DNA of 48,337 nt, from assembly GCA_013002535.1 (NCBI GenBank), contig JABDJK010000040.1, positions 1 to 48,337 of the forward strand, in the 5' to 3' direction. Shown here in pieces: positions 12,577 to 47,417 of this stretch. Origin of the DNA: Hyphococcus sp. (GTDB lineage: Bacteria > Pseudomonadota > Alphaproteobacteria > Caulobacterales > Parvularculaceae). A model generated the notes under the pieces. It was not told the DNA's origin. It searched no databases and saw nothing but the letters and a program-made list of their open reading frames with translations. Made by a program: the position numbers and the translations under genes. Position 1 is the stretch's first letter; the number at the start of each line of letters is the position of its first letter.

Positions 12577-12590
12577 ATGATCTTGATCAA
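12577..12590. promoter_or_regulatory. Near-match FNR/FixK-type site
   Basis: ATGAT-CTTG-ATCAA differs by one base from TTGAT-N4-ATCAA. It lies downstream of both flanking genes, so no promoter is obvious for it. It may be vestigial or may serve an unseen transcript. Confidence 0.3.
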
Positions 12591-12669
12591 TAACGAGACT
12601 TAACCGTCCCAACCGGAAGCGATGTGGAAATCCTACATATTTGCAGTACTAAAAATTCCGACACATCAC

Positions 12670-13542
12670 TCACCGCGCCATTAACATTGGCGCCGCCGTT
12701 GTTTTCAGCATATGCCGCGTAAACCCACCAAAGACAGCTTCGCGCCAGCGATTATGAGAATAGGCTCCCATAACAACGAGGTCGGCATTCGCCTCGACGA
12801 CCTCATGAACCATGACATCGATGTGGTCCTGCCCCTTTTCCAGTTCAATTTCCGTTTCGCTCGTTTCAACGCCATGGAGGCGAAGCGATGCAGCAAGATC
12901 AGTCGTTGATGTGTTTCTTTTGGATATATCATGGACTGATAAAATCTTCACCATGTCCGCGTACTTCATAAACGGCAGCGCGGCCGCGATTGCCGCTGCG
13001 GCTTCGACACTCCCATTCCAGGCAATTACTATGCGATTGGGAAATCTCTCGACGCCTTCCTTTGGGCTAAGAAAAAGCGGCCGACCCGACGAAAACAAAA
13101 GCTCTTCGACCAACCGCCATTGGAATTTTTTATCGTCTGGCCCAGGCGCTGCCGCGACAGCAAGGTCGAATGACGACGCGGTCCTGGCGAGATCCTCCGG
13201 TATGCGTCCCTTTAAGTCTCGCCACGAAGCTGTTGCGCCTTTTGCGTCGCTGTGGCGTGCGATATCATTTATGCCGACCCCATGTTCGTCGCATAAATCG
13301 TCGAACTGCAGACGAAGTTTGCTAACGTTTTTTTCTTCAGCTCGCTTCAACGCGTCATCGTCGCCCAGAGGGTAAACGCCGCCGAGCGGAAAATAGACAA
13401 CGCCCGCACTAAGCGGCCGCTGGCGCATGGAGGCCGCGGCGATATGGGCGTCGAATTTTTCAGCAATAACAGCCGCCGCCTTAAACCCGACTGACGCATC
13501 TTGTTTGCTCAAAAACGGCACAAAGATAGACTTTATGGGCAT
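12670..13542 (-). CDS. Universal stress protein, tandem USP domains (copy 1)
   Basis: The 290-residue protein has two Rossmann-like USP domains, about residues 1-145 and 155-290. The second keeps the nucleotide-loop pattern VVMGAYSHNRWREAVFGGFT near 265, which in this family usually binds ATP; the first is more degenerate. The ATG at 13542 follows a GGGGGT purine tract, and a longer upstream frame is rejected because it overlaps the peroxiredoxin-like gene. It is the last gene of the dioxygenase - peroxiredoxin remnant - USP run, likely driven by the FNR-type site at 14841. Copy 2 is at 30154-31035 and shares the closing motif. Confidence 0.88.
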   Translation of the reverse strand: MPIKSIFVPFLSKQDASVGFKAAAVIAEKFDAHIAAASMRQRPLSAGVVYFPLGGVYPLGDDDALKRAEEKNVSKLRLQFDDLCDEHGVGINDIARHSDAKGATASWRDLKGRIPEDLARTASSFDLAVAAAPGPDDKKFQWRLVEELLFSSGRPLFLSPKEGVERFPNRIVIAWNGSVEAAAAIAAALPFMKYADMVKILSVHDISKRNTSTTDLAASLRLHGVETSETEIELEKGQDHIDVMVHEVVEANADLVVMGAYSHNRWREAVFGGFTRHMLKTTAAPMLMAR

Positions 13543-14840: not shown

Positions 14841-14854
14841 TTGATCAAGGTCAA
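14841..14854. promoter_or_regulatory. FNR/FixK-type site between the dioxygenase and rhodanese genes
   Basis: TTGAT-CAAG-GTCAA matches the TTGA-N6-TCAA rule. Its centre is 61.5 bp before the dioxygenase ATG (minus strand) and 72.5 bp before the rhodanese ATG (plus strand), so one site could control both directions. Confidence 0.7.
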
Positions 14855-17777: not shown

Positions 17778-17791
17778 TTGATCAGGATCAA
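17778..17791. promoter_or_regulatory. Perfect FNR/FixK-type site upstream of the PH-domain gene
   Basis: TTGAT-CAGG-ATCAA is a perfect match. It overlaps the stop codon of the beta-CASP gene and lies 124.5 bp before the PH-domain ATG. It suggests the PH gene has its own promoter rather than only read-through. Confidence 0.65.
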
Positions 17792-19392
17792 TCTGGGCGT
17801 TCGTCTTTTTCTAGGGCTCGGCGCAAGCGTCGCAAAATAATTTGCCGCGATCTCTCGTCAGCGGCGCCCTCCAACTCGTCCACGATATCCAGAGATAGTT
17901 GCGCCAGATCATTATGCCAATCAAGGCGCGAAGCCGTCGCCGTCGCTATTCGCGGCTTCGTGTCCCCTTTTGTTTTCTCGGCGCGTTGCGGCGAAAGCTC
18001 ATATTCATTGTCGAGCTCGGGAATGACAACGCGCTCATCAGAAAGGCCCGCCGTAATCAACCGCGAACGTAAAGAGTCCAGCGACGACGGCTCCCCGTGA
18101 ACCAGAAAAACATTCCCGCGGACAGGCATACGATCCAGCACCCACTCTTCCAAACCGTCTGCATCTGCGTGACCGGAATAAACATCTAGATCAGTGATTG
18201 TCGCTCTGACCTTGACGGTTTCACCCTGTATGCGAACGGCTTTTTTCCCGTTCAGCAACAATGCGCCCAAAGTTCCAGGCGCCTGATAACCGACCATCAT
18301 CACCGTCGCATTCGGGTTCCAAAGGCGTCTCTTCAGATGATGCCGAATTCGTCCAGCTTCACACATGCCGCTTGCGGCAATGATGATAATATTATTTTTA
18401 TATGCATTGATCCTCTTGCTCTCATCCGCGTCTTTCGTGAATACAAAATTGTCATTGAACAAAAACGTATCACTATGGCTAACGTCTTCTAAATCGTCGG
18501 CATAGAGTGCAAACGTTTGCGTCGCTTTGATTGCGAGCGGTGAATCTAGAAAAACGAGCGAGTCGTGAATTCTCTTTTCACGAAGCAATATGCCTATATC
18601 GATTAACAGCTCTTGCGTTCGTTCGACGCTAAATGCTGGAACAACAAGGACGCCTTCACCGGAGCGAATGGCTTCATTTATCGCAGCGGCCAATCGGTCG
18701 CGTCGCATTTCCGGGCTTAGAGGCGTTTTGAGGCGATCGCCGTAAGTCGCCTCGCACACAAGGAAATCTATACTATCAGGCGCGTCCGGATTCGGATGAA
18801 AAAGCTTATGCTCCGGTCCAATATCGCCCGAAAACAAAAGGCGAATAGTCTCGCCGGCGCTGTCGGCAATCTCCACTTCAATAGACGCCGACCCCAATAT
18901 ATGCCCGGCATTCCAGTAACGCATCCGGACCCCGGCCATCGGGTCAGTCCATGACGCATAATCGATAGTTTTAATTTGATTGATCGCATCGTGTGCATCC
19001 GACTGATCGTATATAGGCGTTACGGTTTTGATGCCTTTCTGCTCTCGTCGCCTGTTCAAAAACTTGACTTCAGTTTCCTGGATATAGGCGCTATCCGGCC
19101 ACATGAAGGCGAGCAAATCGCGCGTGCCCTCGGTCGTGAAAATTGGCCCCGTAAATCCATGTTTTACAAGCTTTGGAACCAACCCTGAGTGGTCGATATG
19201 CGCATGAGTAAGCAGAACGAAATCGATATCCGCCGGGGAGAACGGAAAATCTCCATAATTCAACTCTTTCAACGTTTTTGAGCCCTGATACATACCGCAA
19301 TCCACAAGGAAGCTGGCCGCATCGCTCTTAATCCAAAAGCACGAACCGGTAACAGTTCCCGCCGCGCCGCAAAATTTAATACGCGGGCGCAT
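17788..19392 (-). CDS. MBL-fold beta-CASP ribonuclease with RMMBL domain
   Basis: The 534-residue protein belongs to the CPSF73/Ysh1-like beta-CASP nucleases, related to Thermus TTHA0252. The motifs are complete: VDCGMYQG near 30, LLTHAHIDHSGLVPKL near 60-75, AGHILGSASIEVE near 162, FSGDIGP near 190, the beta-CASP motif VVPAFSVERTQELL near 251, SGMCEAGRIRHHL near 345, and the RMMBL parts SGHADADGLEEW near 410 and FLVHGE near 430. Members cut or chew RNA. Its ATG overlaps the second PRPP synthetase gene by 17 bp, so it is the last step of a phosphorylase - PRPP synthetase - RNase cassette. The C-terminal 70 residues are a charged extension. Confidence 0.87.
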   Translation of the reverse strand: MRPRIKFCGAAGTVTGSCFWIKSDAASFLVDCGMYQGSKTLKELNYGDFPFSPADIDFVLLTHAHIDHSGLVPKLVKHGFTGPIFTTEGTRDLLAFMWPDSAYIQETEVKFLNRRREQKGIKTVTPIYDQSDAHDAINQIKTIDYASWTDPMAGVRMRYWNAGHILGSASIEVEIADSAGETIRLLFSGDIGPEHKLFHPNPDAPDSIDFLVCEATYGDRLKTPLSPEMRRDRLAAAINEAIRSGEGVLVVPAFSVERTQELLIDIGILLREKRIHDSLVFLDSPLAIKATQTFALYADDLEDVSHSDTFLFNDNFVFTKDADESKRINAYKNNIIIIAASGMCEAGRIRHHLKRRLWNPNATVMMVGYQAPGTLGALLLNGKKAVRIQGETVKVRATITDLDVYSGHADADGLEEWVLDRMPVRGNVFLVHGEPSSLDSLRSRLITAGLSDERVVIPELDNEYELSPQRAEKTKGDTKPRIATATASRLDWHNDLAQLSLDIVDELEGAADERSRQIILRRLRRALEKDERPD

Positions 19393-20296
19393 CGACGACC
19401 TCCGTTTCCAGCGTTTGTGCTAGCAGCGCCGCGATTTGGATAGCGTTTGTAGAATGCGGGACTGTATCGGTGCTATACAAATGCAAAACCCCTGCCTTTC
19501 TTAGCCGCGTCAGATCGTCATTTCCGCATAATGCATGAGCTACGAGCGCTTCAATATCGCCTGCACCGCGCGCTTTCAGTATTTTCGACGCCGCCGCAAG
19601 CGTTTCACCGGTTGAGGCAACATCGTCGATTAAAAAGACTTTTCTGTCCGCCACGGAAATTTCAGAATCCATCGTTAAACGCACATTGCGATCACCATGA
19701 CGCGTTTTTGACATTGTGGCGAACGAAAGACCGGCGTACAGCGCCGTTGCGCACGTCCAATCATGGGCCTCTTCGTCGGGACCGATCAATAACGCATCTT
19801 GTTCGACGTTTTTGATCTGGAGCAATTTTCCGAGCAGCGGCGCGGCCGAAATCATTGTTGTTTTGACGTCAGGAAAAACGTCGCCGAAATTCTTTATTCG
19901 ATGAAGATGTGGTTCAACCGTCACGATGTGATCAATCCACGGCGTAAAGGTTTGCGCCATCACTTTTTGTGAAACGGGCTCACCGCGCCGAAAGGCTTTG
20001 TCTTGACGCATGTAACAAAGATATGGCGCGACCAAAATAATCTGGTCGGCGCCAAGGTCGCGTAATGCTGAGGCGGCAAGGATGAGTGGGAATAGTTTCG
20101 GATCAGGCTCGTAAAGCGAACAATATAATACCGCGATCGCAGCTGATTGCGGCACGAATAATTTCGTTTCGCTATCGGGAAACCGGCTAACCTCGATGGA
20201 AACAACTGGACAGTTCAAACATTCGCCGAGGCGTGTCGCTGGCGCCAGATCCGGCGGCATCGCGACAATCACCATATTCTTGGCGGACACACTCAT
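19376..20296 (-). CDS. Second, divergent ribose-phosphate pyrophosphokinase
   Basis: The 306-residue protein is a PRPP synthetase homologue clearly different from the housekeeping copy at 3905. It keeps the catalytic parts: RFPDSETK near residue 38, the flexible loop [10 protein letters not shown] near 93, TVEPHLHRI near 125 and the PRPP-binding loop [12 protein letters not shown] near 220. Compared with Prs, HAGQIQGFF is replaced by HLHRIKNFG, which may change regulation or substrate. Its ATG overlaps the phosphorylase stop (ATGA), and its 3' end overlaps the RNase gene, so the three are one translational unit. The enzyme may make or use PRPP in salvage. Confidence 0.85.
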
Positions 20297-21813
20297 TGAG
20301 AATTCTCCGACGCTGGCGGCGCCTGCGATAAAATCGTAACGCCGTGATCAGCGGCCGCCATTTTTGACGCAAAGTCAAAGTCAGATTTAAAGCACGAATG
20401 AATACGGTAAAGCGGCGCTCCTTTGACGACCTTGTCGCCAACTTTCTTCAAAAGATCGATCCCCGCGCCTTTGTCCATCGGCGCGCCGGCTAACCTCGCA
20501 ATGCGTCCCAACCGAAAGCAATCCATTCGCATGACCACGCCATCTTGATCGGCCGTTATCTCTTCGGCGATATCGCCCAATTCGCTCGATACGCATGTTT
20601 CGCCTTGCGCGGCGATGATGGTTTCCATTTTCGCCAGGGCGGCTCCCGTGTCTAGCAATTCTTCAGCCCGCGCGCGACCGGCGCCGCCGCGTAGTTCCGG
20701 GTCGAACTCAAGCACCCGCCCCGCAAGAAAGAGCGCGCGCGCGCGCAGATCAACAGGCGCTTCGGGCGCATTGCGCAAAACCGCCATGACATCGCGCGCT
20801 TCCAATGCCGGCCCAATCCCGTTGCCTACAGGTTGGCTGCCGTCGGTAAAAACGACGTCAAGGATAAGGCCGATTTGATCGCCAATAAACTCAAATAGCT
20901 TTCGCAACCGTATGGCTTCGGCCCGCGAACGCACCTTTGCGCTGGGACCGACCGGAATATCAATAACAAGATGCGTCGAACCAGCCGCAATTTTTTTCGA
21001 AAGGATAGACGCCACCATTTGCTCTCTGGTGTCGATGCGCAACGGACGCTCCACCGATATCAATACGTCATCAGCCGGCGACAAATTCACATGGCCGCCC
21101 CAAACGAGGCAGGAATTTTCGCTCTCAACAACGTTGCGCATTTCCTCCATAGTCAGGTCGACCCTCGCCAACACCTCCATTGTGTCGGCTGTCCCAGCTG
21201 GCGATGTTATCGCCCGCGAAGACGTTTTCGGCATGAACAGCCCGTGAGCCGCAGCAATTGGCGCTACGATCATCGAGGTCCTGTTGCCGGGAATTCCACC
21301 GATGCAATGTTTGTCGACGATGATTGGCTTATCCCATTTAAAACGCGCGCCGGATTCTGTCATCGCGCGGGTCAATGCAAGCACTTCATCGGTTGTCATG
21401 AAATTTGCGGTCGACACCAGAAAGGCGGCCACTTCCATAGGTGAATACCGAAATGCTGCAATATCATTGATGATGGCGGCGATCTCGCCCGCGCTCATCT
21501 CGGCCCCAGCTATTTTTTTCCGAACCGCTTCAAGACTGGCCGGCGGGGCCGCTTGCGCGATTTCAACCATAGCGCCGTTTTGCAATCCCAACCGGCGGAA
21601 CGCTGGATTCGCCACGCCAAGTTCATCATCAGCGACCACAGAAGGATCATCGGAAATTATCAGCGACGCCAATAATTTTTTGGCATTGCCCATAACTTCA
21701 ATTTTTTTTAGCGCCGCAAATTCTTCGGCTCGATAGACCGAACAGTCCCTTGCTAGAATAACAGTGTTATCCGGCGCGGTATCAAGGGCGATGTTTTTAA
21801 TTTTTAGCATCAA
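20293..21813 (-). CDS. AMP-phosphorylase-like thymidine phosphorylase family protein
   Basis: The 506-residue protein has an extra N-terminal domain of about 85 residues before the phosphorylase core. The phosphate-binding region reads [17 protein letters not shown], followed by [20 protein letters not shown]. This is the pattern of archaeal AMP (NMP) phosphorylases, not of DeoA thymidine phosphorylases, which have KHSTGGVGD. Those enzymes split NMPs with phosphate into base and ribose 1,5-bisphosphate. The enzyme therefore probably feeds nucleotide salvage together with the coupled PRPP synthetase and RNase downstream. No RuBisCO or R15P isomerase gene is seen in the window. Confidence 0.85.
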
Positions 21814-23356: not shown

Positions 23357-23370
23357 TTGACCGATGTCAA
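23357..23370. promoter_or_regulatory. FNR/FixK-type site upstream of cfa
   Basis: TTGAC-CGAT-GTCAA is a perfect palindrome of the TTGA-N6-TCAA class, centred 62.5 bp before the cfa ATG. It could drive the whole run cfa - small membrane protein - phosphorylase - PRPP synthetase - RNase. Confidence 0.7.
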
Positions 23371-23966: not shown

Positions 23967-23980
23967 TTGATCAGGATCAA
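23967..23980. promoter_or_regulatory. Perfect FNR/FixK-type site between the lipoprotein gene and fixL
   Basis: TTGAT-CAGG-ATCAA matches the consensus fully and is identical to the site at 17778. Its centre is 62.5 bp before the lipoprotein ATG and 155.5 bp before fixL, so the lipoprotein gene is the more likely direct target. Confidence 0.75.
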
Positions 23981-32841: not shown

Positions 32842-32842
32842 C

Positions 32843-34962: not shown

Positions 34963-34982
34963 TTTAATTCCTCCAATATACG

Positions 34983-35731: not shown

Positions 35732-35745
35732 TTGAGCTATATCAA
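35732..35745. promoter_or_regulatory. FNR/FixK-type site between the BON and ABC-exporter operons
   Basis: TTGAG-CTAT-ATCAA has one mismatch to TTGAT-N4-ATCAA but keeps both TTGA and TCAA. It is centred 90.5 bp before the BON ATG and 87.5 bp before the ABC ATPase ATG, so it could act in both directions. Confidence 0.55.
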
Positions 35746-35825
35746 ATGCGTCGTGATTGTATTGTCCGATTATCCAGGGAAACTATTTTTGATTTTAAGG
35801 CGCAAAAACTATGCAGGGACCTGTA

Positions 35826-36575
35826 ATGCCCGCCCCCCACTCACTCAAAACGACCAATGACATCGTGCAAAATGGCGCCATCTATCGCACCACCGGTCTC
35901 ACGAAGGTCTATGGCGAAGGGCCCGCAGCTGTACATGCATTGCGCGGCGTCAATCTGGAAATTCCAACCGGTGAGTTGGTGGTGCTGCTCGGACCATCAG
36001 GCAGCGGCAAATCAACTTTGTTAAACATCCTCGGCGGTATTGATCGGGGAAGCGACGGCGATGTTTTTTTTCAAGATAATGCCCTGAGCGAAATGGATGA
36101 CCGCGGGCTGACGGCTTACCGTCGCGCGCATGTAGGCTTCGTTTTTCAGTTCTACAATTTGATGCCGAGTCTGACGGCGCAAGAGAATGTCGAACTTGTG
36201 GCAGAAATATCGCCCGCACCGATGAAGGCAATAGACGCCCTCGATCTTGTTGATCTCGGCGATCGCGCCAATCATTTCCCTTCAGAATTGTCCGGCGGCG
36301 AGCAACAACGGGTCGCCATCGCGCGCGCCATTGCGAAAAAGCCGACCGTGCTTTTTTGTGATGAACCCACCGGCGCCCTAGACAGCAAAACCGGCGTGAC
36401 TGTCCTTAAAGCCTTACAAAAACTCAATAAAGAACTTGGCGCCACGACATTGGTCATTACTCACGCCGCCGCGACTGCGGCGATGGCAGACCGGGTCGTG
36501 CATTTTGCCGATGGCGACATTCGCGAAGTCATCGAAAACCAAATCCCTGTCACCGCTGACAAAATTAGCTGGTGA
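35826..36575 (+). CDS. ABC transporter ATP-binding protein (MacB/LolD type)
   Basis: The 249-residue ATPase has Walker [19 protein letters not shown] near residues 53-70, the Q-loop [18 protein letters not shown] near 104-121, the signature [14 protein letters not shown] near 153-166, Walker [13 protein letters not shown] and the H-loop VITHAA. The YNLMP/TAQENV segment is typical of LolD/MacB exporters. I chose the ATG at 35826 (AGGG seven bases upstream) over one five codons earlier. It is followed within 6 bp by its permease. Confidence 0.93.
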
Positions 36576-36580
36576 TATAA

Positions 36581-38956
36581 ATGCGCCCTGCTCTATCCAT
36601 GCTGGACCGAAAAATGCTGCGCGACCTCTGGCGCATCAAGGGCCAGGCGCTTGCGATTATTTTTGTCATCGCAGCGGGCATTGCGCTTTTCGTCATGTCG
36701 AGCGGTATGATGATCGCGCTCGAAGAAACCATGCGCGCCTATTATGAGCGCCATCGTTTTGCAGACGCTTATGCGCCGGTAAAGCGCGCGCCCAATCATC
36801 TATTGGCGGATATTCGAAACCTCGATGGCGTTTCAACCGCCGAAGGGCGCATCAATGGCGGCGGCCTTGTTACGCTTGAAAAGGCCAGCGCGCCTGTCAG
36901 CGCCCGGGTTATTTCATATGATCCGGACGCGGCCTCACCGATCAACGCGGTCTATCTCGTCGAAGGGCGCATGCTGCGCACAACCCAAAGCGATGAGATC
37001 ATGCTGCTCAAACCGTTTGCGGACGCCCACAACCTAACGCCGGGCGACTCAATCGCCATAACGATGAACGGTGCACAACACACCTTCATCATCGCCGGCC
37101 TCGTTCTATCCCCGGAGTTTATCTATGCGCTCCCCCCGGGCGAATTTGTCGTTGACGCCGGGCGGTTCGCCGTGTTGTGGGCAAGCGAAGAAGCGATGGA
37201 AGCCGCTTACGATCTTGACGGCGCCTTTAACGAAGTCATCCTCACGACATCGCGCAACACAAATGAAGACGGCCTGATCGATGATCTGGATCGGTTGCTG
37301 GCGCCTTATGGCGCTGTTGGCGCTTTTGTCCGGGCTGACCAGGTCTCCAACAAATATCTAACCGAAGAGTTGAAACAGCTTGAGACCATGGGCGTTGTGA
37401 TGACGCCGATCTTTCTGGGTGTTGCGATCTTTCTCCTCAATATCGTCATTACCCGGCTTGTGCATACTGAGCGCGAGCAAATCGGCCTGTTGAAAGCGTT
37501 CGGCTATTCAAATAATGATGTGGGCGCACATTATCTTAAGTTTGTTCTGGTCATCGCCCTTGGCGGCGCACTGGTCGGTTGGGGCGGCGGGCAATATCTC
37601 GGCCGGTTGCTTTCGGGGATCTATCAGAAATATTTCCATTTTCCGTTCCTGTTGTTCAACCCGGAATTTCGCACTTTAGGACTCGCCGTCCTTTTCAGCG
37701 CGGCGGCCGCGGCGCTCGGCGCATTTTCCGCCGTGCGCGGCGCAGTCTCATTATCGCCAGCTGTCGCCATGCGCCCGCCAGCGCCGCCCCACTTCACACG
37801 CGGCAATGCGTTCAGCAAGACGCTCACGCGCATCCTCGATCAACCAAGCCGGATGATTTTGCGCCGTGTCTCACGCCAGCCCTTTCGCGCTGCGTTAACG
37901 ACGCTGGGGATCGGCGCCGCCATGGGCCTTGCCGTAATGATGCGTTTCAATATGAACGCAACCGACTATATGCTTGATATCAGCTTCAACATTGCCGACC
38001 GCAGCGATGTCTTTGTCACTTTTGCCGAGCCGCTATCGGAAACGACGATCTATGAGCTTTCGAATATTGAGGGCGTAATCTATGCGGAACCGTTTCGCGC
38101 AAGCGCCGTCATGTTTCGCAATGACCGGATTGAACATTTGGGCGCCGTAACCGGACTGCCCGAAAACCCGGTCTTAAACCGCGCGATCGACGCCAATCTC
38201 GCGCTGGTCGATATCCGTGGCGACGGGATCGTTTTTTCTGAGCAGCTGGCAGACATTCTTGAAATTGCGGTTGGCGACACGGTGATCGCCGAAGTGCGCG
38301 AAGGCCGCCGCCCCACTCTTGAAATTCCGGTCACCGGTCTTGTGGAAGCCATGATCGGCACGCCCGCCTATATGACATCCGATGCGCTCAACAAAAAATT
38401 GAAAGAACCGAACCGCGCCTCCGGCGCTTATCTGAAAATTGATATGGCGCAACGCAATAAGGTCTATGATAAACTTAAGTCGATGCCGTTGATTGCCGGC
38501 GTCAGCCTGCGGCGCGAGGCTTATTATAATTTTCAAAAAATGATTGATGAAGGCCCCGGTACATTCCGCAGAATTATGATGGTTTTTTCAATCGTAATTG
38601 CTGCAGGCGTTGTTTATAATGGCGCGCGCATCGCGTTTATTGAACGCCATCATGACCTTGCGAGCCTGCGCGTTCTGGGATTTACGAAAATCGAAACCGG
38701 TTATGTGTTGTTCGGTGAGCTTGCGCTATTGGCGATTTTGGCGCTGCCGGTCGGTTCGCTCATCGGCCTTGGCTTGTGGGTCTATATCGCCGATGCGCTC
38801 AGCACCGAGCTTTACCAGATACCTGTTGTCTTTAAGGAAAGTGGGCTTGGCTATGCGGCAATTGTCGTTCTCGTCTCAACCGCGATTGCCGGCGCATTAG
38901 TCCAGCGTGACATTATGAAACTCGATCTTGCGACAGCGCTGAAGGCGCGGGAGTGA
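36581..38956 (+). CDS. FtsX-family ABC transporter permease, double FtsX type
   Basis: The 791-residue permease has an N-terminal membrane helix (AIIFVIAAGIALFVMSSGMM), a large periplasmic region (about 50-260), three membrane helices (about 270-400, with HTEREQIGLLKAFGYSNNDV near 298), then a second periplasmic domain and three more helices (about 665-785, with ERHHDLASLRVLGF near 690). This repeated layout is that of LolE/DevC-like or lipid-exporting permeases (COG0577). It is joined to an ATPase and an HlyD-type adaptor, so it is the core of a tripartite exporter. The substrate is unknown. Confidence 0.9.
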   Translation: MRPALSMLDRKMLRDLWRIKGQALAIIFVIAAGIALFVMSSGMMIALEETMRAYYERHRFADAYAPVKRAPNHLLADIRNLDGVSTAEGRINGGGLVTLEKASAPVSARVISYDPDAASPINAVYLVEGRMLRTTQSDEIMLLKPFADAHNLTPGDSIAITMNGAQHTFIIAGLVLSPEFIYALPPGEFVVDAGRFAVLWASEEAMEAAYDLDGAFNEVILTTSRNTNEDGLIDDLDRLLAPYGAVGAFVRADQVSNKYLTEELKQLETMGVVMTPIFLGVAIFLLNIVITRLVHTEREQIGLLKAFGYSNNDVGAHYLKFVLVIALGGALVGWGGGQYLGRLLSGIYQKYFHFPFLLFNPEFRTLGLAVLFSAAAAALGAFSAVRGAVSLSPAVAMRPPAPPHFTRGNAFSKTLTRILDQPSRMILRRVSRQPFRAALTTLGIGAAMGLAVMMRFNMNATDYMLDISFNIADRSDVFVTFAEPLSETTIYELSNIEGVIYAEPFRASAVMFRNDRIEHLGAVTGLPENPVLNRAIDANLALVDIRGDGIVFSEQLADILEIAVGDTVIAEVREGRRPTLEIPVTGLVEAMIGTPAYMTSDALNKKLKEPNRASGAYLKIDMAQRNKVYDKLKSMPLIAGVSLRREAYYNFQKMIDEGPGTFRRIMMVFSIVIAAGVVYNGARIAFIERHHDLASLRVLGFTKIETGYVLFGELALLAILALPVGSLIGLGLWVYIADALSTELYQIPVVFKESGLGYAAIVVLVSTAIAGALVQRDIMKLDLATALKARE

Positions 38957-38960
38957 TTTG

Positions 38961-40190
38961 ATGATAGGCGTAAAGCCACGTACCCTTGTTATTGCCGCAG
39001 CCATAATCGTTGTGGGGCTATTTTTCCTCTATGCGTTCTGGCCGCGCGCGGCCCAGGTTGATCTCGCCACCATCGAACAAAGTCACATGATGGTAACGAT
39101 CGACGAAGAGGCAAAAACCCGCGTGCGCGATTCATACGTTGTTTCAATGCCTGTGGCGGGACGGCTCCTGCGCGTTGATGTCGAAGCCGGCGACGCTGTC
39201 ATGCAGGGCGAAACGATTGTTGCGCGCATTGCGCCAGCAAGCCCTACGGTTCTTGATGTTCGAACTGAAGAACAAGCCGGCGCCGCCGTTGCCGCCGCTG
39301 AGGCCGCGCTGGCGCTTGCGAAGGCCGAAGTCAAAAAAGCGGCGGTTGATGAAGACTTCGCCGAGGTTGAGGCTGAGCGCTATCGGGAGCTGCGCCCCCA
39401 CGACGCCGTCTCCCAATCGCAATTAGACAATGCCGAGCGCAGCTGGCGCGCCGCGTCAGCCGCGCTTGAGATGGCGCGCGCAAATGTACGGTTGCGCGAA
39501 GCCGACCTTAAAAGCACCCGCGCCATGCTAATGACGTTCAGCGAAGCCGAAGAACGCAGCGTTGCAACCAACCCGCACCCGCGCGAGGCGCTGGAGGTTC
39601 GCTCACCCATTTCCGGACGGGTCCTGCGGCTTATTCAGGAGAGCGAGACCGTGTTGCCCAGCGGCGCACCGGTGCTGGAAATCGGCGACCCACAAAGCGA
39701 TCTTGAAATTGTCGCAGAGCTTCTTTCAAGGGACGCGGTAAAAACCAAACCCGGTGATCGCGTTATCATTGAAAAATGGGGCGGCGATGCCCCGCTCACC
39801 GGCGAGATTGAACGTATCGAGCCCTGGGGGTTTACAAAATTTTCCGCCCTCGGGGTTGAGGAACAGCGCGTCAACGCCATCATCAAATTCACCTGTGAGA
39901 AAAGCGATCATGAAGCCCTCGGTCACGGCTATCGAACTGAGGTAAAAATTGTCGTTTGGGAAGATGAAGAGGCGTTGGTCGCCCCGTCTAGCGCCCTCTT
40001 CCGCCTCAATGGCGGGTGGGCGGTGTTCAAAGTCGTTAATGGCAGAGCGACCGAAAGCACTGTTGAAATCGGTCGCAATAATGGGACGCAAGCGGAAATT
40101 TTAAGCGGACTGAACGACAGCGATACTGTCATCCTTTATCCGGGCAACCAGATTGTTGATGGAGCGAGGGTGGAAAAACGAAGAATTTAA
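38961..40190 (+). CDS. HlyD/MacA-type periplasmic adaptor subunit
   Basis: The 409-residue protein has an N-terminal membrane anchor (TLVIAAAIIVVGLFFLYAF), a lipoyl-like half (VEAGDAVMQGETIVARIAP near 75), an alpha-helical hairpin rich in Ala/Glu (about 100-190) and the second half with SPISGRVLRLIQESE near 215, then the beta-barrel region and C-terminal tail ending in DGARVEKRR. This is a membrane-fusion protein for the preceding ABC permease. GGGAG precedes the ATG at 38961, only 4 bp after the permease stop. No outer-membrane channel gene is in the window. Confidence 0.9.
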   Translation: MIGVKPRTLVIAAAIIVVGLFFLYAFWPRAAQVDLATIEQSHMMVTIDEEAKTRVRDSYVVSMPVAGRLLRVDVEAGDAVMQGETIVARIAPASPTVLDVRTEEQAGAAVAAAEAALALAKAEVKKAAVDEDFAEVEAERYRELRPHDAVSQSQLDNAERSWRAASAALEMARANVRLREADLKSTRAMLMTFSEAEERSVATNPHPREALEVRSPISGRVLRLIQESETVLPSGAPVLEIGDPQSDLEIVAELLSRDAVKTKPGDRVIIEKWGGDAPLTGEIERIEPWGFTKFSALGVEEQRVNAIIKFTCEKSDHEALGHGYRTEVKIVVWEDEEALVAPSSALFRLNGGWAVFKVVNGRATESTVEIGRNNGTQAEILSGLNDSDTVILYPGNQIVDGARVEKRRI

Positions 40191-40221: not shown

Positions 40222-40677
40222 TTACCAACGACCAAGACGCTCTTTGAAGTAGTCAAGAAGCTCCGGCTCGGGCATATTCGTAAGATCCTTGTCGAATACG
40301 CCAATATATTTCGCTGTTACCTGCAGTTGGAATTTCGCGCGCAATTTTCCGAGAGCTTGCGGCGGTGCGGCGACAACGATCTGATCAAACTTTTCTCGTT
40401 GAGCCGCTTTGTTCAGCTTTGCAGCGATTTCACCAAGAAACGCAGCTTCAATTTTGTCATGGGGCTCGGCGCCGCCCATGGCAAAGCGTGAGTCCGGGCC
40501 TGTTTTATGCCCGCGGCCCGGCCGTTCCCGGCCAAGCTCGCGGGAGGCTTTGCGCGCATCTTCCGCCTCCTGGTTGTCAATGAGCGTCCACTGTTCCTTC
40601 ATGCCGCGACTTTCAAAGAGCTGCATACGAGCGCCGTCCGCAACTAGGAACCAAGTTGTTCGCTGTGGTGTTATCAT
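40222..40677 (-). CDS. Host-attachment family protein
   Basis: The 151-residue protein matches the family named after an Agrobacterium gene linked to attachment to host cells. Its fold is related to the eRF1-domain-3-like/Host_attach group. Motifs are TTWFLVADGARMQLFES near residues 7-23, SRFAMGGAEPHDKIEAAFLGEIA, cited as SRFAMGGAEPHDK near 63-75, and IVVAAPPQALGKLR near 100. The name should not be read as proof of host contact; it occurs widely in free-living alphaproteobacteria. It is divergent from an NAD(P)H oxidoreductase, with an FNR-type site in the gap. Confidence 0.85.
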   Translation of the reverse strand: MITPQRTTWFLVADGARMQLFESRGMKEQWTLIDNQEAEDARKASRELGRERPGRGHKTGPDSRFAMGGAEPHDKIEAAFLGEIAAKLNKAAQREKFDQIVVAAPPQALGKLRAKFQLQVTAKYIGVFDKDLTNMPEPELLDYFKERLGRW

Positions 40678-40741: not shown

Positions 40742-40755
40742 TTGACGTGCGTCAA
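40742..40755. promoter_or_regulatory. FNR/FixK-type site between the host-attachment and oxidoreductase genes
   Basis: TTGAC-GTGC-GTCAA has perfect half-sites of the TTGA-N6-TCAA class. The centre is 71.5 bp before the host-attachment ATG and 69.5 bp before the oxidoreductase ATG, so it is almost midway and may control both. Confidence 0.72.
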
Positions 40756-40817: not shown

Positions 40818-41399
40818 ATGGCGAAACAAATCTGCATTCTGCAAGGGCATCCCCATGACGACCCGTCTCATTTTTGCCGGGCTCTTAGCGCTGCATACGA
40901 AGACGGCGCCATTCAAGCGGGGCATGGCGTTGATGTGATCGATCTTGGGAAAATGGAAATTCCTTTCCTTCGCGACCCGGCAGACTTTAAAAAAGAGCCG
41001 CCGGCACAGATCATCGAAGCGCAACACATCGTCAAAGAAGCAGATCATCTTTACGTGATCTATCCGCTTTGGATGGGTTCCATGCCAGCGCTTGTGAAAG
41101 CATTTTTTGAACAACTATCACGTCACGAGTTTTCGATCGCCGAGAGCGAGGGCGGCTGGCCACGCAAAATGCTGAAAGGAAAATCAGCTCGGGTTGTCGT
41201 AACCATGGGCATGCCGGCGGCGGCGTACAAAATTTTCTTCGGCGCCCATGGCGTAAAGAGCTTTGAAGGCGCAATTTTGGGAATGGCGGGATTTAAACCA
41301 GTCAAAGAAACATTGATTGGCGGTGTTGGCGGCCTCAGCGCCAAACAAGCCGAGAAACGCCTCGCTAGAATGCGCAGTATTGGCGCCCGGGCTAAATGA
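40818..41399 (+). CDS. NAD(P)H-dependent flavodoxin-fold oxidoreductase
   Basis: The 193-residue protein fits the KefF/MdaB/NQO-like family, FMN- or FAD-binding enzymes that reduce quinones by two electrons. The motifs are ILQGHPHDDPSHFCRALSAA near residues 7-26 (phosphate-binding loop), HLYVIYPLWMGSMPALVKAFFEQ, cited as YPLWMGSMPALVKAFFE near 80-96, and VVTMGMPAAAYKIFFG near 130. The ATG at 40818 follows a weak purine stretch. It is divergent from the host-attachment gene and stands alone; the next gene starts 54 bp later in the same direction. Confidence 0.86.
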   Translation: MAKQICILQGHPHDDPSHFCRALSAAYEDGAIQAGHGVDVIDLGKMEIPFLRDPADFKKEPPAQIIEAQHIVKEADHLYVIYPLWMGSMPALVKAFFEQLSRHEFSIAESEGGWPRKMLKGKSARVVVTMGMPAAAYKIFFGAHGVKSFEGAILGMAGFKPVKETLIGGVGGLSAKQAEKRLARMRSIGARAK

Positions 41400-41453
41400 A
41401 TATTTTTTTCCCACTTTGTAATGATTCACTAATTGTGCGGCAGGCCGGCGTTG

Positions 41454-42707
41454 ATGGCCCTCGATGATTTCAACACGCTATACCAATTAGCGCTTTCCCT
41501 TGCGCTTGGCCTGGTCATTGGAATTGAGCGGGAGTGGCGCGAAAGGGATTTTGATGGTGAGCGGCGCCCGGCAGGATTACGCACGTTCGGGCTCATCGGT
41601 TTGAGCGGCGGCGTCAGCGGGTTAGCTGGTCGCCAGTTTGAAGCTATGCCTGCAATTGGCCTGGCGATAACAATCCTCGTCATGCTGGTTGCTTATTGGC
41701 GGCGATCATCGTCACGTGAATTCATGGGCGTGACAACAATATTCGCTGCCTTTGTTGCGTTCGCCTGTGGGGTTTTGTGCATTATGGGCACGGAAGTCCC
41801 GGCGATTGCGGGGGCAATTGTTGTCGCCATGATACTGGGCGCCAAAGATCGCATGCATGGCTTTGTAGGACATCTTGACCAGAAAGAGATTTTCGCCGCG
41901 CTTCAATTTTTGTTGATAGCCGGCGTCGCCCTACCGCTAATACCGAATGAGCGCATGGGACCATATAATGCAATCAACCCGTTTGAAATCTGGCTGATGG
42001 CGGTATTGATTAGCGGACTTTCTTTCTCCGGCTATATCGCCTTGCGTACCCTCGGCGCCCGCCACGGAATATTGGGCACAGCGATACTCGGCGGCTTCGT
42101 TTCATCTACTGCCGTCACGGTATCCCTTGCGCACATGGCTCGGCGCCAACCTGAACTGCATAATTTGCTAAGCGTTGGCATAATCACGGCGTCTACGATC
42201 ATGTTCGCTCGTGTTGCCGCCATCGCCGCTATTGTTCACACACCCTTATTAGGGCGACTGGCACCGCCCATTGCTTGCGTCATTATCATATCGATTATCT
42301 GCGCCACGTTCATCGCCAGAAAAACAGACGGCGTATCTTTTGAAAAACCCAAAATTGCGAATCCGTTAGATGTAGCGCCAGCAATACTTTTCGCCGGGCT
42401 GCTTGGAATTATCATGGTAAGTTCGCGCGCACTGGAGGCCTTGTTCGGGCCGGAGGGGGTTTATGCGATATCGATCGCATCGGGACTCGCCGATGTCGAC
42501 GCTATAACTTTGACGCTCAGCCGGTTCGCCGCTGAAGGTTTGTCAGTTGAGGTCGCCTCGATTGGAATATTATTAGCGGCAGTGACGAATACATTCGTGA
42601 AAGTCGCGTTGGCGGCTTTCGCAGGCGGAAGCAGCTTACGACCAGCATTCCTATCCCTGTCAGCAGCGATTATCGCAGCCGGGTTATCCGCAGTGATTAC
42701 GATGTGA
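41454..42707 (+). CDS. MgtC/SapB N-terminal and DUF4010 membrane protein
   Basis: The 417-residue protein is very hydrophobic, with about 12 membrane segments. The first 130 residues match the MgtC/SapB family (LALGLVIGIEREWRERD near 14-30, RRPAGLRTFGLIGL near 36-49). The remainder is DUF4010 (ISGLSFSGYIALRTLGARHG and GGFVSSTAVTVSLAHMARR near 215-250; SGLADVDAITLTLSRFA near 345). Function is unknown; MgtC itself relates to magnesium and acid tolerance and to ATP synthase control. The ATG at 41454 is favoured over an upstream TTG. A possible hairpin follows at 42731. Confidence 0.85.
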   Translation: MALDDFNTLYQLALSLALGLVIGIEREWRERDFDGERRPAGLRTFGLIGLSGGVSGLAGRQFEAMPAIGLAITILVMLVAYWRRSSSREFMGVTTIFAAFVAFACGVLCIMGTEVPAIAGAIVVAMILGAKDRMHGFVGHLDQKEIFAALQFLLIAGVALPLIPNERMGPYNAINPFEIWLMAVLISGLSFSGYIALRTLGARHGILGTAILGGFVSSTAVTVSLAHMARRQPELHNLLSVGIITASTIMFARVAAIAAIVHTPLLGRLAPPIACVIIISIICATFIARKTDGVSFEKPKIANPLDVAPAILFAGLLGIIMVSSRALEALFGPEGVYAISIASGLADVDAITLTLSRFAAEGLSVEVASIGILLAAVTNTFVKVALAAFAGGSSLRPAFLSLSAAIIAAGLSAVITM

Positions 42708-43478: not shown

Positions 43479-43492
43479 TTGACGCAGGTCAA
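43479..43492. promoter_or_regulatory. FNR/FixK-type site, first of a tandem pair
   Basis: TTGAC-GCAG-GTCAA has perfect half-sites. It is centred 93.5 bp before the P-type ATPase ATG and 66.5 bp before the start of the broken BON gene. Confidence 0.7.
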
Positions 43493-43493
43493 C

Positions 43494-43507
43494 TTGATCC
43501 CTGTCAA
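43494..43507. promoter_or_regulatory. FNR/FixK-type site, second of a tandem pair
   Basis: TTGAT-CCCT-GTCAA begins two bases after the first site. It is centred 78.5 bp before the P-type ATPase ATG. The centres of the two sites are 15 bp apart, so two dimers could hardly bind fully at once on the same face. Confidence 0.7.
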
Positions 43508-43578: not shown

Positions 43579-46392
43579 ATGCCAAATACGCAATGGCACG
43601 CCATGCCGCTGAACGAGGTCCTCGTCGCGTTAGGTGTCGGGACTGAGGGGCTTAGCTCATCTGACGCGAACTCAAGACTAAACAAATTCGGTCCCAATCA
43701 ATTGCCGGAAACGGGGCGACATTCAAAATTCTTCATCATCATTCGCCAACTAAACAACCCGTTGACGTTTATTCTGTTCGTGGCGGCGATAATTTCATTT
43801 GCACTTGGGCAAGCGACAGACGGAATTTTTATCTGCGCTGTCGTTATTATCGACATGGCAATCGGCTCTGCGCAGGAATGGCGCGCGGAAGCGAGCGCCG
43901 CATCGCTTAAGAAAACACTGCGCATTTCCCCGATTGTCATCCGCGCGGGAGTCAAGCAAACCGTTGACATCGCGGAGATCGTTCCGGGTGATCTTGTGCT
44001 GCTTGAATCGGGCGTTGTTGCACCGGCGGATATACGCCTAACCGCGGCTCATGATCTGAAGCTTGATGAGTCGCTTTTAACGGGCGAGTCCAAGCCCGTA
44101 GAAAAACAAAGCGACCGTGTATGTACGCCAGATGCGCCTCTCGGCGATCGCAATAATATGACTTATGCGGGCACCATGGTGACCGCGGGGCGCGGCGCCG
44201 GCGTCGTATGCGCGACAGCGGCGAATACAGAACTTGGCCATATTGCAAAAATGCTGGCTGGGCGCGGTGGCCGCGCGCCGTTGCTTTTGCGAATGGAAAA
44301 ATTCTCCAACCGCATTGCAGTGACCACGGTCCTGCTCGCCCTCGCCCTCGGCGCAGGGCAGTATTTTCGGGGCGAAACGCTCAGTAGTGTCTTTATTTTG
44401 ACCACAGCGTTAGCGGTTTCAGCTATCCCCGAAGGACTGCCCATGGCGATTACAGTTGCGCTTTCCGTCGCCTCAAGCCGGATGGGAAAGCGAAATGTTA
44501 TTGTCCGACACTTGCCCGCGGTCGAAGCACTTGGTTCTTGCACTCTGATCGCAGCGGATAAGACCGGCACGCTCACGGCCAACCGTCTGACGATAAAACG
44601 AGTCGTGCTGGCTAACGACGCTGTAATCGATATTGAAGGCGAAGGCCTGGAGGTTGAAGGCGCCGCGACAACGCAAGAAGAAGGTCCGCTTTCTGATCGG
44701 GCGCAAAAAGAATTATTGAATTTGGCCAGCGCCGGCGTGCTCACCAATGAAGCAGACCTTGGCGTTAACAACGGTGCTGTGGAAGCGCGCGGTGATTCAG
44801 TCGATATTGCGTTTCTCGTTCTTGCCGAGAAACTGGGAATTAAAAAAAAGGCGCTTCGCCGGCGACAAAAAAAATGCGCCGAAATTCCTTATGAGCCGGA
44901 AATCGGCTTTTCCGCATGCGCACACAAAGGTGGAGAGAATACAATTATCTCCGTCAAAGGCGCGCCGGAAGCCGTACTTTCTATGTGTGACGGATTTGAT
45001 CGGGCGGCAATTGATACGCAGCTCCACGAACTAACTTCGGTTGGCTATCGGGTTATCGCCGTTGCAAGCGGTGAAAAGGCAGGCGCGCGCGATACACTAA
45101 CACAAGATGACTTAAAGAGCCTTCGGCTTCTCGGGTTTGTCGGTCTGATCGATCCGTTACGCAGCGAAGCGCCGGACGCCGTCACGCATGCGCGCGCCGC
45201 AGGCGTCGATATCCGGATGATCACCGGCGATCATCCCGAAACTGCACTTGCAATTGCGCAACAACTAGGCCCCGCTTGGATGCCGGATAGCACCCTTACC
45301 GGCGCAGAACTGAAAAATCTGGCAGACAAGGAGCGCTCCAAAGCCATTGCAGATACGCCGGTCTACGCCCGCGTTGAACCAGCGCAGAAAAACCTTATCG
45401 TCACGGAATTGCAAAAGCAGGGTCATTTCGTTGCTGTTACGGGCGACGGCGTGAATGACGCGCCAGCGTTAAAGACCGCTCATGTCGGCGTCGCTATGGG
45501 CGCGGGCGGCACAGATGTCGCGCGGGCCGCATCCGACCTGATTATTACCGACGATAACTTTGCCTCTATTGTCGCCGGAATTGAAGAAGGTCGCGCCGCA
45601 TATGACAATATCCGAAAAATCGTTTGGCTTTTAATTAGCACCGCAATAACCGAAGTTGTCGTGTTCGCACTTGCGCTTTTCGCCGGGCTTCCAATCCCTC
45701 TCACCGCCGTTCAAATTCTCTGGCTCAATCTTGTCACCGAGGGCATTCAGGATGTCGCCCTCGCCTTCGAAGGAAAAGAACCCAACATTATGAAGCGCCG
45801 GCCTCGGCGGCCAAAAGAACCGATTTTCGACCGACAAATGATTGAACAATGCCTGCTCGTTGGGCTTTACATAGGCGGTTTGGCGTTTTTAATTTTCTAT
45901 TGGTTATATAATATTCAGGGATATTCCGAAGAAACGGCGCGCAACCTAGTTCTTCTGTTCCTGGTTTCATTCAACAATTTCCAAACACTCAATTGTCGCT
46001 CGGAAACACGCTCAGCGTTCTCGATTCCCTTAAGCGCCAATCCATTGCTCATCGGCAGTATCATTGGCGCACAAGCGCTCCATATCGCCGCCATGCACAT
46101 CCCGGCTTTAGAAGAAGTCCTTGATCTTAATCCGGTCACCATTCGGGAATGGGCGAGCGCCATTGGTCTCGCGGCTACGGTATTCGTACTTGGTGAGTTA
46201 TACAAACTCCTTGTTTCCCGACCCCGCATCCGCCGAACCTTTGAAGCCACCAAATGCAATCATGACTTCTCGAAAACAGGATATGAAACGCCTAAAACAA
46301 TTGACAGCACACCCAATCTGGCGCCTGGAGTAGAACCACATACTCATAAATTGGATCAAGCGAGCAACTATCTCGATGGCAGACCGAACTGA
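43579..46392 (+). CDS. P-type cation-transporting ATPase, P2 (SERCA/PMR-like) type
   Basis: The 937-residue ATPase has an N-terminal cation-ATPase domain (WHAMPLNEVLVALGV), the actuator TGES at residues 168-171, M4 SAIPEGLPMAITVA near 281-294, the phosphorylation site DKTGTLT with Asp327, MITGDHPETA near 550 and the hinge GDGVNDAPAL near 622-631. M6 reads LNLVTEGIQDVALAFE, so the ion-site pattern is N-x-x-T-E. There are about 10 membrane segments and no heavy-metal CxxC domain. It most likely moves Ca2+, Mn2+ or monovalent ions; this cannot be settled from sequence. Tandem FNR-type sites lie upstream, and the next gene overlaps by 17 bp. Confidence 0.92.
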   Translation: MPNTQWHAMPLNEVLVALGVGTEGLSSSDANSRLNKFGPNQLPETGRHSKFFIIIRQLNNPLTFILFVAAIISFALGQATDGIFICAVVIIDMAIGSAQEWRAEASAASLKKTLRISPIVIRAGVKQTVDIAEIVPGDLVLLESGVVAPADIRLTAAHDLKLDESLLTGESKPVEKQSDRVCTPDAPLGDRNNMTYAGTMVTAGRGAGVVCATAANTELGHIAKMLAGRGGRAPLLLRMEKFSNRIAVTTVLLALALGAGQYFRGETLSSVFILTTALAVSAIPEGLPMAITVALSVASSRMGKRNVIVRHLPAVEALGSCTLIAADKTGTLTANRLTIKRVVLANDAVIDIEGEGLEVEGAATTQEEGPLSDRAQKELLNLASAGVLTNEADLGVNNGAVEARGDSVDIAFLVLAEKLGIKKKALRRRQKKCAEIPYEPEIGFSACAHKGGENTIISVKGAPEAVLSMCDGFDRAAIDTQLHELTSVGYRVIAVASGEKAGARDTLTQDDLKSLRLLGFVGLIDPLRSEAPDAVTHARAAGVDIRMITGDHPETALAIAQQLGPAWMPDSTLTGAELKNLADKERSKAIADTPVYARVEPAQKNLIVTELQKQGHFVAVTGDGVNDAPALKTAHVGVAMGAGGTDVARAASDLIITDDNFASIVAGIEEGRAAYDNIRKIVWLLISTAITEVVVFALALFAGLPIPLTAVQILWLNLVTEGIQDVALAFEGKEPNIMKRRPRRPKEPIFDRQMIEQCLLVGLYIGGLAFLIFYWLYNIQGYSEETARNLVLLFLVSFNNFQTLNCRSETRSAFSIPLSANPLLIGSIIGAQALHIAAMHIPALEEVLDLNPVTIREWASAIGLAATVFVLGELYKLLVSRPRIRRTFEATKCNHDFSKTGYETPKTIDSTPNLAPGVEPHTHKLDQASNYLDGRPN

Positions 46393-47407
46393 TAACACGT
46401 TCCCAAACGAAGAAGAATTTGAGAACAGGCTGAAGAAATCACGGCGCTTGATCATGCTTGCCGTCGCCCTCTTTATCGCATTGATAGGAATTGGCTTTGC
46501 CTCTCTCAATCTGGAAAGCCTGCAAGCGCTGGGCGAACAGATAAGAACGGCGCAACCAAGATGGCTCGCTGCTTCGGCGCTTTCTCAGCTAATGACATAT
46601 GCATGCACGGCGCTCATATGGCGGCGCGCGCTCGTAAGCGCCGGTTACAGCTTGCCGTTCCGCGATTTATACTGGCTATCTGTTGGAAAACTATTCGCCG
46701 ACCAGGCGATTCCGTCAGCCGGGCTGTCCGGTGGCGCACTATTCTTCTACGCCTTCGCCAAACGCAACATTCCCAATAAAATAGCCTTTTCGCTCTTCAT
46801 TTTTGTATGTGTTGCTTACTTCATCGCGTTTTTCATCGCCGGAATCATCAGCTTTGCCGCGCTTACTGCTGTTGACAGCGCATCACCGGTAATTTCAACC
46901 AGCATAACTACGGTCGCGATCGTATTGATGAGCATTCTCGTAATCAGTTTTCTAATTATTATCTCACTCCCTAACGCGACGCCGAGATGGGCGCAGAAAG
47001 TTCCACATTTTAATCAGGCGCGTCACTGGGTTTCTACCGCCCTTTATTTCATTAAAACGGAACGCAGATTATTCTTTGAGCTCACGGCGCTGCAGTTTTT
47101 CGTCCGCCTTATTGACGGCATCACATTGTATCTTGCATTTGTTGCAATCAACATAAGCGTACCGATAGAGGTGTGCTTTTTCACTGTTATTATCGGCTCG
47201 ATCGCATCGATGGTGGGATTTATGCCCATGGGCGTCGGCGCCTATGAAGCTGGCATGATCGCGACATTAAAAGTTTTTGGCGTTCCAATAGATAGCGCAA
47301 TCGCAGCAACTGTCATATTCCGAGGCCTGACGTTGTGGCTACCGCTGATACCAGGGTTTTACATTGTTCAACGCGAAATTTTTCGAAAAAAAGCTTCCGC
47401 CGGTTGA
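46376..47407 (+). CDS. Lysylphosphatidylglycerol synthase TM region/UPF0104 family protein
   Basis: The 343-residue integral membrane protein has about eight hydrophobic segments. It fits the UPF0104 / LPG_synthase_TM family, the flippase-like half of MprF, here without a synthase domain. Motifs are SVGKLFADQAIPSAGLSGGALFFY, cited as FADQAIPSAGLSGGALFFY near residues 108-126, and GFMPMGVGAYEAGMIATL near 280-297. The ATG at 46376 lies inside the end of the ATPase gene, so the pair is probably co-translated. The lipid substrate is unknown. Its stop overlaps an FNR-type site for the next gene. Confidence 0.82.
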   Translation: MADRTDNTFPNEEEFENRLKKSRRLIMLAVALFIALIGIGFASLNLESLQALGEQIRTAQPRWLAASALSQLMTYACTALIWRRALVSAGYSLPFRDLYWLSVGKLFADQAIPSAGLSGGALFFYAFAKRNIPNKIAFSLFIFVCVAYFIAFFIAGIISFAALTAVDSASPVISTSITTVAIVLMSILVISFLIIISLPNATPRWAQKVPHFNQARHWVSTALYFIKTERRLFFELTALQFFVRLIDGITLYLAFVAINISVPIEVCFFTVIIGSIASMVGFMPMGVGAYEAGMIATLKVFGVPIDSAIAATVIFRGLTLWLPLIPGFYIVQREIFRKKASAG

Positions 47408-47417
47408 TCTGCATCAA
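47404..47417. promoter_or_regulatory. Perfect FNR/FixK-type site upstream of the phosphoribosyltransferase gene
   Basis: TTGAT-CTGC-ATCAA is a perfect match overlapping the stop of the UPF0104 gene. It lies 234.5 bp before the phosphoribosyltransferase ATG, which implies a long leader if used. The 237-bp gap also holds a hairpin at 47599; I see no ORF or RNA gene in it. Confidence 0.65.

Follow-up and report, generated by a model that had tools for sequence, protein, structure and literature searches.

Contig JABDJK010000040.1 of Hyphococcus sp. (Parvularculaceae; assembly GCA_013002535.1) was analyzed over its whole length of 48,337 bases, ending at position 48337, and this stretch is called the window here. 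Palindromes of the form TTGA-N6-TCAA, referred to as boxes, are packed in it around genes for a FixL-type sensor kinase, a FixJ-type response regulator, and a FixK-type Crp/Fnr regulator. A run of stress and dormancy genes, ∼33,000 bases in all, has such boxes at most of its promoters, and this arrangement is real and conserved in relatives. Judged from its sequence, the island very probably (rough probability 0.87) forms a low-oxygen survival regulon that would be governed by the order FixL, FixJ, FixK, island, with the regulator genes in its middle. Because the window is the whole contig, the island may extend beyond the contig end.

An earlier note on this DNA had listed 13 exact boxes, five of them perfect (TTGAT-N4-ATCAA), and one near match at 12577. 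All 13 were found, as were the five perfect sites (17778, 23967, 31089, 34518, and 47404) and the near match, which reads ATGATCTTGATCAA, but two further exact sites at 25537 and 27827, both intragenic, had been overlooked. The 15 exact palindromes span 14841-47417 and compare with 1.09 expected; none of 100 shuffles reached 15, which bears out the statement that their number is far above chance. The first 12.4 kb had been described as free of sites. Indeed, no exact site lies before 14841, but one near match is present at 8066. Thirteen of the 15 palindromes touch gene gaps, in keeping with the placement at gene gaps or gene ends that had been described, but the near match at 12577 is flanked by two converging genes and has no obvious promoter to serve.

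The density was then set against the remainder of the genome. TTGA-N6-TCAA occurs 112 times in 3,436,327 bases (reversed control pattern, 30 times), and the island holds 13% of these sites in 1% of the genome; the probability of finding 15 of 112 within one 35-kb stretch is ∼8e-13 (binomial, uncorrected for the choice of stretch). Perfect sites number 15 genome-wide, one third of them in the window. As controls served 17 stretches of 20 kb from six contigs of the same genome, hand-picked rather than random, each contig being known to hold at least one site. These 340 kb contained 14 sites in gaps and genes together. With gene gaps called identically for window and controls, 13 sites in 4,034 gap bases of the island stood against 3 in 42,016 gap bases of the controls, a ∼45-fold excess per gap base. 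Among 256 half-sites combined with spacers of 0-12, TTGA with spacer 6 gave the highest island count (15). The same half-site gave 1, 1, 1, and 2 copies at spacers 4, 5, 7, and 8, and 4, 4, and 5 at spacers 0, 11, and 12, the remaining spacers giving 0-2; when ranked by island/control ratio, some patterns with 1-2 island copies and 0-1 control copies score above it. The candidate FixK boxes and related elements are as follows, with the strand of the adjoining gene in parentheses.

14841..14854, FixK box between divergent MBL gene (-) and rhodanese-SulP (+)
17778..17791, perfect FixK box before a bacterial PH-domain gene (-); -10-like CATAAT 21 bp on
23357..23370, FixK box before a cyclopropane synthase-like (CMAS-like) gene (-); -10-like TAATAT at 22 bp
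23967..23980, perfect FixK box between divergent 165-aa gene (-) and fixL (+)
25537..25550, FixK box within the fixL coding sequence; centre 77.5 bp before the fixJ ATG at 25621
27019..27034, TACGTA-N4-TACGTA, putative FixJ box before fixK
27061..27074, FixK box before fixK, on the gene side of the putative FixJ box
27827..27840, exact palindrome within the fixK coding sequence
28586..28599, FixK box before the Hsp20 gene (-)
31089..31102, perfect FixK box between divergent Usp2/kinase-like genes (-) and phasin (+)
34518..34531, perfect FixK box at the end of the CBS gene, 296.5 bp before Pta-AckA (-)
35732..35745, FixK box between divergent BON-CBS (-; 63.5 bp from ATG 35675) and ABC-FtsX-HlyD (+)
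40742..40755, FixK box between divergent Host_attach-family gene (-) and flavodoxin-fold gene (+)
43479..43492, outer FixK box of a pair; degenerate BON gene (-) on one side, cation ATPase (+) on the other
43494..43507, inner FixK box of the same pair, preceding the cation ATPase; -10-like hexamer 22 bp on
47404..47417, perfect FixK box 234.5 bp before a phosphoribosyltransferase gene (+)

The boxes also share a promoter form. A sample of 64 box-gene pairs in 15 gene groups was scored, in which a divergent box counted for both genes and from which fixL, fixK, and fixJ, matches below 38% identity, and boxes less than 30 or more than 170 bp away were left out. The TATAAT-like score peaked 21 and 22 bp past the box (z scores of 3.3 and 3.9 across offsets 0-55); the peak persisted after averaging over gene groups, and none of 2000 letter shuffles reached it. 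A class II Crp/Fnr activator centred at -41.5 matches a -10 element 21-22 bp past its box, and judged from this spacing the boxes are at activator distance. Within the window, 8 of 13 pairs scored at least 8 of 12 at gaps of 20-23 bp, the inner cation-ATPase box (43494) scoring 8. Four genes had been credited with box centres 60.5-62.5 bp before the ATG; these distances (61.5 bp for ATG 14786, 62.5 bp for 23301 and 23911, and 60.5 bp for 31035) hold if the ATGs are the true starts, and an earlier possible start codon is present in three of the four. Gene starts were set by reading frame and homology.

Conservation was followed in relatives that are mostly metagenome-assembled genomes (MAGs) of Marinicaulis, a name now resolved as Hyphococcus (Parvularculaceae). 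The others are one Parvularcula MAG, one MAG of an uncultured member of Parvularculaceae, several class-named MAGs, and the cultured Aquisalinus flavus D11M-2 (Parvularculaceae; locus L122). Sixteen loci with a FixK of at least 50% identity (L109-L124) were taken as related; 13 are from family genomes, and L114, L122, and L123 were grouped by similarity. Together they hold 77 boxes in 271,547 bases, as against a mean of 9.0 for spacers 4, 5, 7, and 8 and 2 for the reversed pattern, with single loci ranging from 10 boxes (L112, 15.3 kb) down to 1 (L119, 20.6 kb) and 0 (L121, 3.2 kb). Several island genes, partly in the same order, were found in 10 of the 12 relatives whose surroundings were examined. 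The record behind L114 has Deltaproteobacteria in its title, and the FixLJK island found there resembles the Parvularculaceae ones; it is perhaps a mislabelled MAG. Box positions before orthologs were retained as well (own genome included, matches below 38% identity dropped, starts estimated): the distance is 58-61 bp for Usp2 in 6 of 8 genomes (different in G014, no box in G003), 61-71 bp for the Host_attach-family protein (HostAtt) in 7 of 8 (118 in G021), and 63-85 bp for Hsp20 in 7 of 7.

Gene content points the same way. Orthologs of FixK and of FixJ (at least 60% identity) coincide in their distribution: of 28 genus genomes, the same 13, with that of the window counted, have both. A CBS ortholog (at least 72% identity) was found in 10 of these 13 as against 1 of the 15 others (Fisher P 3e-4), and HostAtt relatives (E 2e-34 or better) in 11 of 13 as against 2 of 15, where a further 2 genomes gave weaker matches. 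Perfect sites averaged 13.0 in genomes with FixK and 8.1 in those without (one-sided Mann-Whitney P 0.008 for counts and 0.016 per Mb, the latter with rounded genome sizes).

The three regulators are encoded as follows.

24129..25646, +, FixL-type heme-PAS histidine kinase
25621..26259, +, FixJ-type response regulator
27248..27940, +, FixK-type Crp/Fnr regulator; an upstream ATG at 27191 is also possible

The PAS domain of FixL aligned to that of Bradyrhizobium japonicum FixL (8JS5, E 3e-33; 1DP6, E 3e-32). In the alignment with 8JS5, the histidine of the RHD motif and a later arginine, which we take to be the heme ligand and Arg220, are retained, and the domain is of the heme type by alignment. 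FixJ consists of a receiver and a LuxR-type DNA-binding domain (PDB match 5XSO, E 1e-44), and the best PDB match of FixK is FixK2 (4I2O, E 1e-28). The best-scoring NCBIfam models are rhizobial FixL, FixJ, and Caulobacter FixK, with scores under the equivalog cut-offs (389.7 versus 850 for FixL, 216 versus 255 for FixJ, and 146.7 versus 300 for FixK); the proteins are not members of those narrow equivalogs. The recognition helix of FixK is FNR-like and reads ETVCR, as compared with ETVSR in FixK2. Its cysteine is invariant in 11 of 11 aligned relatives, whereas FixK2 and an FNR-type regulator have serine, and it is possibly a redox switch. Reading FixK by eye revealed no N-terminal FNR cysteine cluster. 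The genome encodes eight proteins with a cyclic nucleotide monophosphate-binding domain, and in the seven others no four-cysteine FNR cluster was seen by eye either. Canonical FNR control of the island was rejected, FixK having no iron-sulfur cysteine cluster; of the FNR/FixK regulon that had been proposed, the FixK part is supported and the FNR part is not.

The element TACGTA-N4-TACGTA before fixK (27019) is the single exact copy in the genome. Of 17 genomes, 15 have one or more copies of TACGTA before fixK, and 5 have an exact pair spaced 10 bp apart; over all 538,505 bases of the regions examined, the hexamer occurs 40 times. Proposed FixJ consensus motifs differ, and the element resembles GTAMGTAG, quoted as one FixJ motif from systematic evolution of ligands by exponential enrichment (PMC4999443). 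It is a putative FixJ box. The box at 27061 would allow a possible autoregulation of fixK; among 16 relatives checked, only G003 (G, C, and L numbers are our handles for genomes, contigs, and loci) has a palindrome near the fixK start. The palindrome within fixK (27827) has a counterpart at the same codon (residue 213) in G013 and in none of the 15 other relatives, and it may be due to chance. Outside the island, a box lies at C42:26386 between an ftrB-like gene and a 197-aa gene leading into ccoN-ccoO. Since ccoN and ftrB are FixK targets in Caulobacter (PMC3751524), FixK by analogy probably also acts on the cbb3 oxidase and the ftrB-like gene here.

On binding, oxygen response, direction of regulation, and physiological role, we infer the following scheme. 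When oxygen leaves the FixL heme, FixL would phosphorylate FixJ, which would then bind TACGTA-N4-TACGTA and turn on fixK. FixK, apparently without an iron-sulfur oxygen sensor, would bind TTGA-N6-TCAA at -41.5 of most island promoters and activate the genes for universal stress proteins (Usp), Hsp20, BON/CBS proteins, phasin, Pta-AckA, ABC export, the cation ATPase, and the phosphoribosyl enzymes, besides probably the two targets elsewhere. The box inside fixL, located before fixJ, would close a feedback loop.

This last box (25537) is spelled by the fixL codons ATT GAC GCA CAT CAA within the kinase motif I-I-D-A-H-Q. In the FixL genes of 10 genomes, picked for the residues DAHQG and not for the box, 81 columns are invariant and degenerate, and the third base is identical in only 4 of them; two of these four are the wobble positions of His and Gln, which the box requires, whereas the Asp and Ala wobbles that it leaves free vary among the same genomes. 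Thirteen of 17 related FixL genes (that of the window and those of 12 of the 16 loci) have a box at this motif, as against none of 50 FixL-like genes from other loci where the motif was found. The 25 best-scoring FixL genes of the order outside the family (from the best 30 loci) had no box near the 3' end; the motif was found in 24 of them, reading E-A-H-G in 23 and E-T-H-G in 1. Of the related genes without the motif box, those of G016 and G021 have another box ∼110-130 bp upstream in fixL, and in those of G009 and G005 no box was seen in fixL. We lean slightly toward the view that I-[IV]-E-A-H-G, the form of the motif in other families, changed here to I-[IV]-D-[AS]-H-Q, its codons being set so as to spell TTGA-N6-TCAA 77 bp before fixJ, creating an intragenic class II promoter through which FixK would feed back on fixJ alone and shift the FixJ:FixL ratio at low oxygen. 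That the box is a nonregulatory by-product of a conserved protein motif appears unlikely: it does sit on the kinase motif, and the four related FixL genes lacking D-[AS]-H-Q also lack the box there, but its two required wobbles never vary in the 10 genomes while the free ones do, two of those four genes have the alternative upstream box, and the out-of-family genes carry the other motif and no box. The hexamer score after the fixJ box peaks at 22 bp too, but the letters overlap conserved codons. Feedback of FixK on fixJ has already been predicted for Caulobacter (PMC4999443); an intragenic, synonymously constrained FixK box was not found in the literature examined, the coverage of which was partial and does not show absence from print. 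The conserved box in fixL offers a testable case of a protein-coding motif doubling as a regulatory site.

Several observations weigh against the scheme given above. FixLJK are present in G009 and G005 with only 1 and 0 boxes in stretches of 20.6 and 3.2 kb, and the regions of G007 and G009 hold little beyond FixLJK and few island genes. The 64 promoter pairs share ancestry, and the tests on them overstate independence. The lowest -10 scores in the window were 0 for the outer ATPase box (43479), 5 for the 165-aa gene, 5 for phasin, and 6.5 for HostAtt, followed by 7 for rhodanese. FixJ-like elements with up to two mismatches have a chance expectation of 0.34 in the window. In the gap upstream of the genes at 17788-21813, there is no box, whether exact or with one mismatch; our guess is that these genes would be read from the CMAS promoter. 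Of 10 perfect sites outside the island, at least 4 are intragenic, the genes concerned having Pfam domains with no relation to oxygen (queuosine synthesis, FlaF, TIR, and VWA/Tad), so that many outside sites are probably idle. Genomes without this FixK still contain 2-21 perfect sites, and from their average of 8.1 we deduced that other users of the site exist. G002, which has no close FixK, carries a perfect box between CBS and HostAtt relatives (45-46% identity; G002:C7:180755-184412), with a Crp/Fnr gene of 35% identity ∼2 kb from it. In this arrangement box and regulator are not strictly tied, and perhaps the same targets answer to a different regulator. At least one other Crp/Fnr protein may likewise share the boxes in the genome studied here.

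Two Crp/Fnr genes besides fixK, on C42 and C56, encode the recognition helix TPENLSR, and a DNR identity was considered for their products. An exact box precedes the C42 gene, whose product, compared over a partial sequence only, has FtrB as its best NCBIfam match below the cut-off; another exact box lies in the upstream part of the C56 open frame. The boxes could then be shared by FixK for oxygen and by the FtrB-like C42 protein and the C56 protein for other signals, with the island as their joint target. Near-identical sites reported for FNR, FixK, and DNR (PMC2908626) would agree with this, but FixK is encoded within the island, and FixJ and FixK co-occur with the island genes; we consider such sharing possible but somewhat unlikely. 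The claim that one regulator controls most of the island draws support from the boxes conserved before orthologs, the class II -10 spacing, the FixL-FixJ-FixK set, and the co-occurrence of FixJ and FixK, and loses some to the two additional genes with FNR-like helices and nearby boxes. Repression rather than activation of some targets by FixK was likewise considered, as the 27061 box has the putative FixJ box on one side and fixK on the other and Bradyrhizobium FixK2 is described as auto-repressed (PMC9104804); with -10-like hexamers at activator spacing for the boxes as a group, it seems quite improbable. A clustering of palindromes by chance or base composition has a negligible probability and was rejected on the shuffles and the spacer comparison: many of the 112 genomic sites that were examined are intragenic, but the shuffles never gave 15, spacers 4, 5, 7, and 8 are not enriched, and positions are conserved in relatives.

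Besides the regulators, the following genes were identified in the window.

12670..13542, -, universal stress protein Usp1; homology begins at ∼13542
17788..21813, -, beta-CASP nuclease-like, phosphoribosyl pyrophosphate (PRPP) synthetase-like, and AMP/thymidine-phosphorylase-like genes
28013..28528, -, Hsp20 small heat-shock protein
30154..31035, -, universal stress protein Usp2
31200..31640, +, phasin
31654..34228, -, acetate kinase and MaoC-phosphate acetyltransferase pair
34528..35732, -, CBS-domain and BON-domain proteins
35811..40190, +, ABC ATPase, FtsX-like permease, and HlyD protein
40222..40677, -, Host_attach/baeRF12-family protein (HostAtt)
40818..42707, +, flavodoxin-fold protein and MgtC/DUF4010 membrane protein
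43579..47407, +, P-type cation ATPase and lysylphosphatidylglycerol-synthase-like membrane protein

A frameshift in Usp1 was considered and dropped, as the homology only begins at the point given. The beta-CASP/PRPP-synthetase/phosphorylase set recurs whole or partly near the island in G006, G024, G003, and G016; the phosphorylase-gene copy is preceded by a box at 81 bp in G016, and none is present there in the other three. An APH-like kinase fused to a P-loop AAA domain (28620-30131, -) adjoins Usp2 or Hsp20 in several relatives. At 42775-43419 (-) lies a second BON-domain gene with three in-frame stops and 50% identity to the intact BON protein, and G023 has a stop-free copy next to its cation ATPase gene. 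With a regulon packed around its own regulator and boxes at most promoters, gene function becomes readable from box sharing.

Among known systems, the DosR dormancy regulon of Mycobacterium has CBS-protein and cation-ATPase kinds in common with the island, and its DNA site differs from the FixK box. It further resembles both the island and the lxa locus of Burkholderia cenocepacia in Usp and alpha-crystallin (PMC6127331) and is unlike the island in that its target promoters are bound by the response regulator itself (PMC3029386). The lxa locus (50 genes, BCAM0275-0323) is a low-oxygen locus required for anoxic persistence. Compared by protein kinds, it too is one contiguous cluster with universal stress, BON, and alpha-crystallin proteins, but its proposed regulator BCAM0049 lies outside the locus (PMC6127331), whereas the island encodes FixK within. 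In strain H111, which is without the lxa locus, Anr-type regulators matter for anoxic survival (PMC9104464, PMC3759415). Caulobacter has the same FixLJ-FixK cascade, with ccoN and ftrB as targets (PMC3751524) and a predicted feedback of FixK on fixJ. FixK targets in Caulobacterales are described as limited to redox processes (PMC4999443), in contrast to the island with its mostly stress, storage, and export genes packed together.

The FixLJ-FixK systems of Bradyrhizobium and Rhodopseudomonas are also among the closest known. The predicted alphaproteobacterial core FixK regulon, best defined in Bradyrhizobiaceae, includes FixJ, FixL, ABC subunits, Hsp20, HlyD, CBS, and a kinase (PMC2908626, Table 1); the island has the same DNA site and shares FixL, FixJ, ABC ATPase and permease, HlyD, Hsp20, a CBS protein, and a kinase with this predicted core, and targets in Rhodopseudomonas palustris have neighbouring locus numbers (RPA4235-4249; PMC2908626). 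They belong to a different family from the island, which is from Parvularculaceae. Neither Marinicaulis nor Parvularculaceae is named among the matches listed in a literature search, and the matches listed in further searches were unrelated by title, which does not show absence from print. The island adds a new member to a known kind of low-oxygen gene set, and with it the FixLJ-FixK low-oxygen programme would extend to a marine family.

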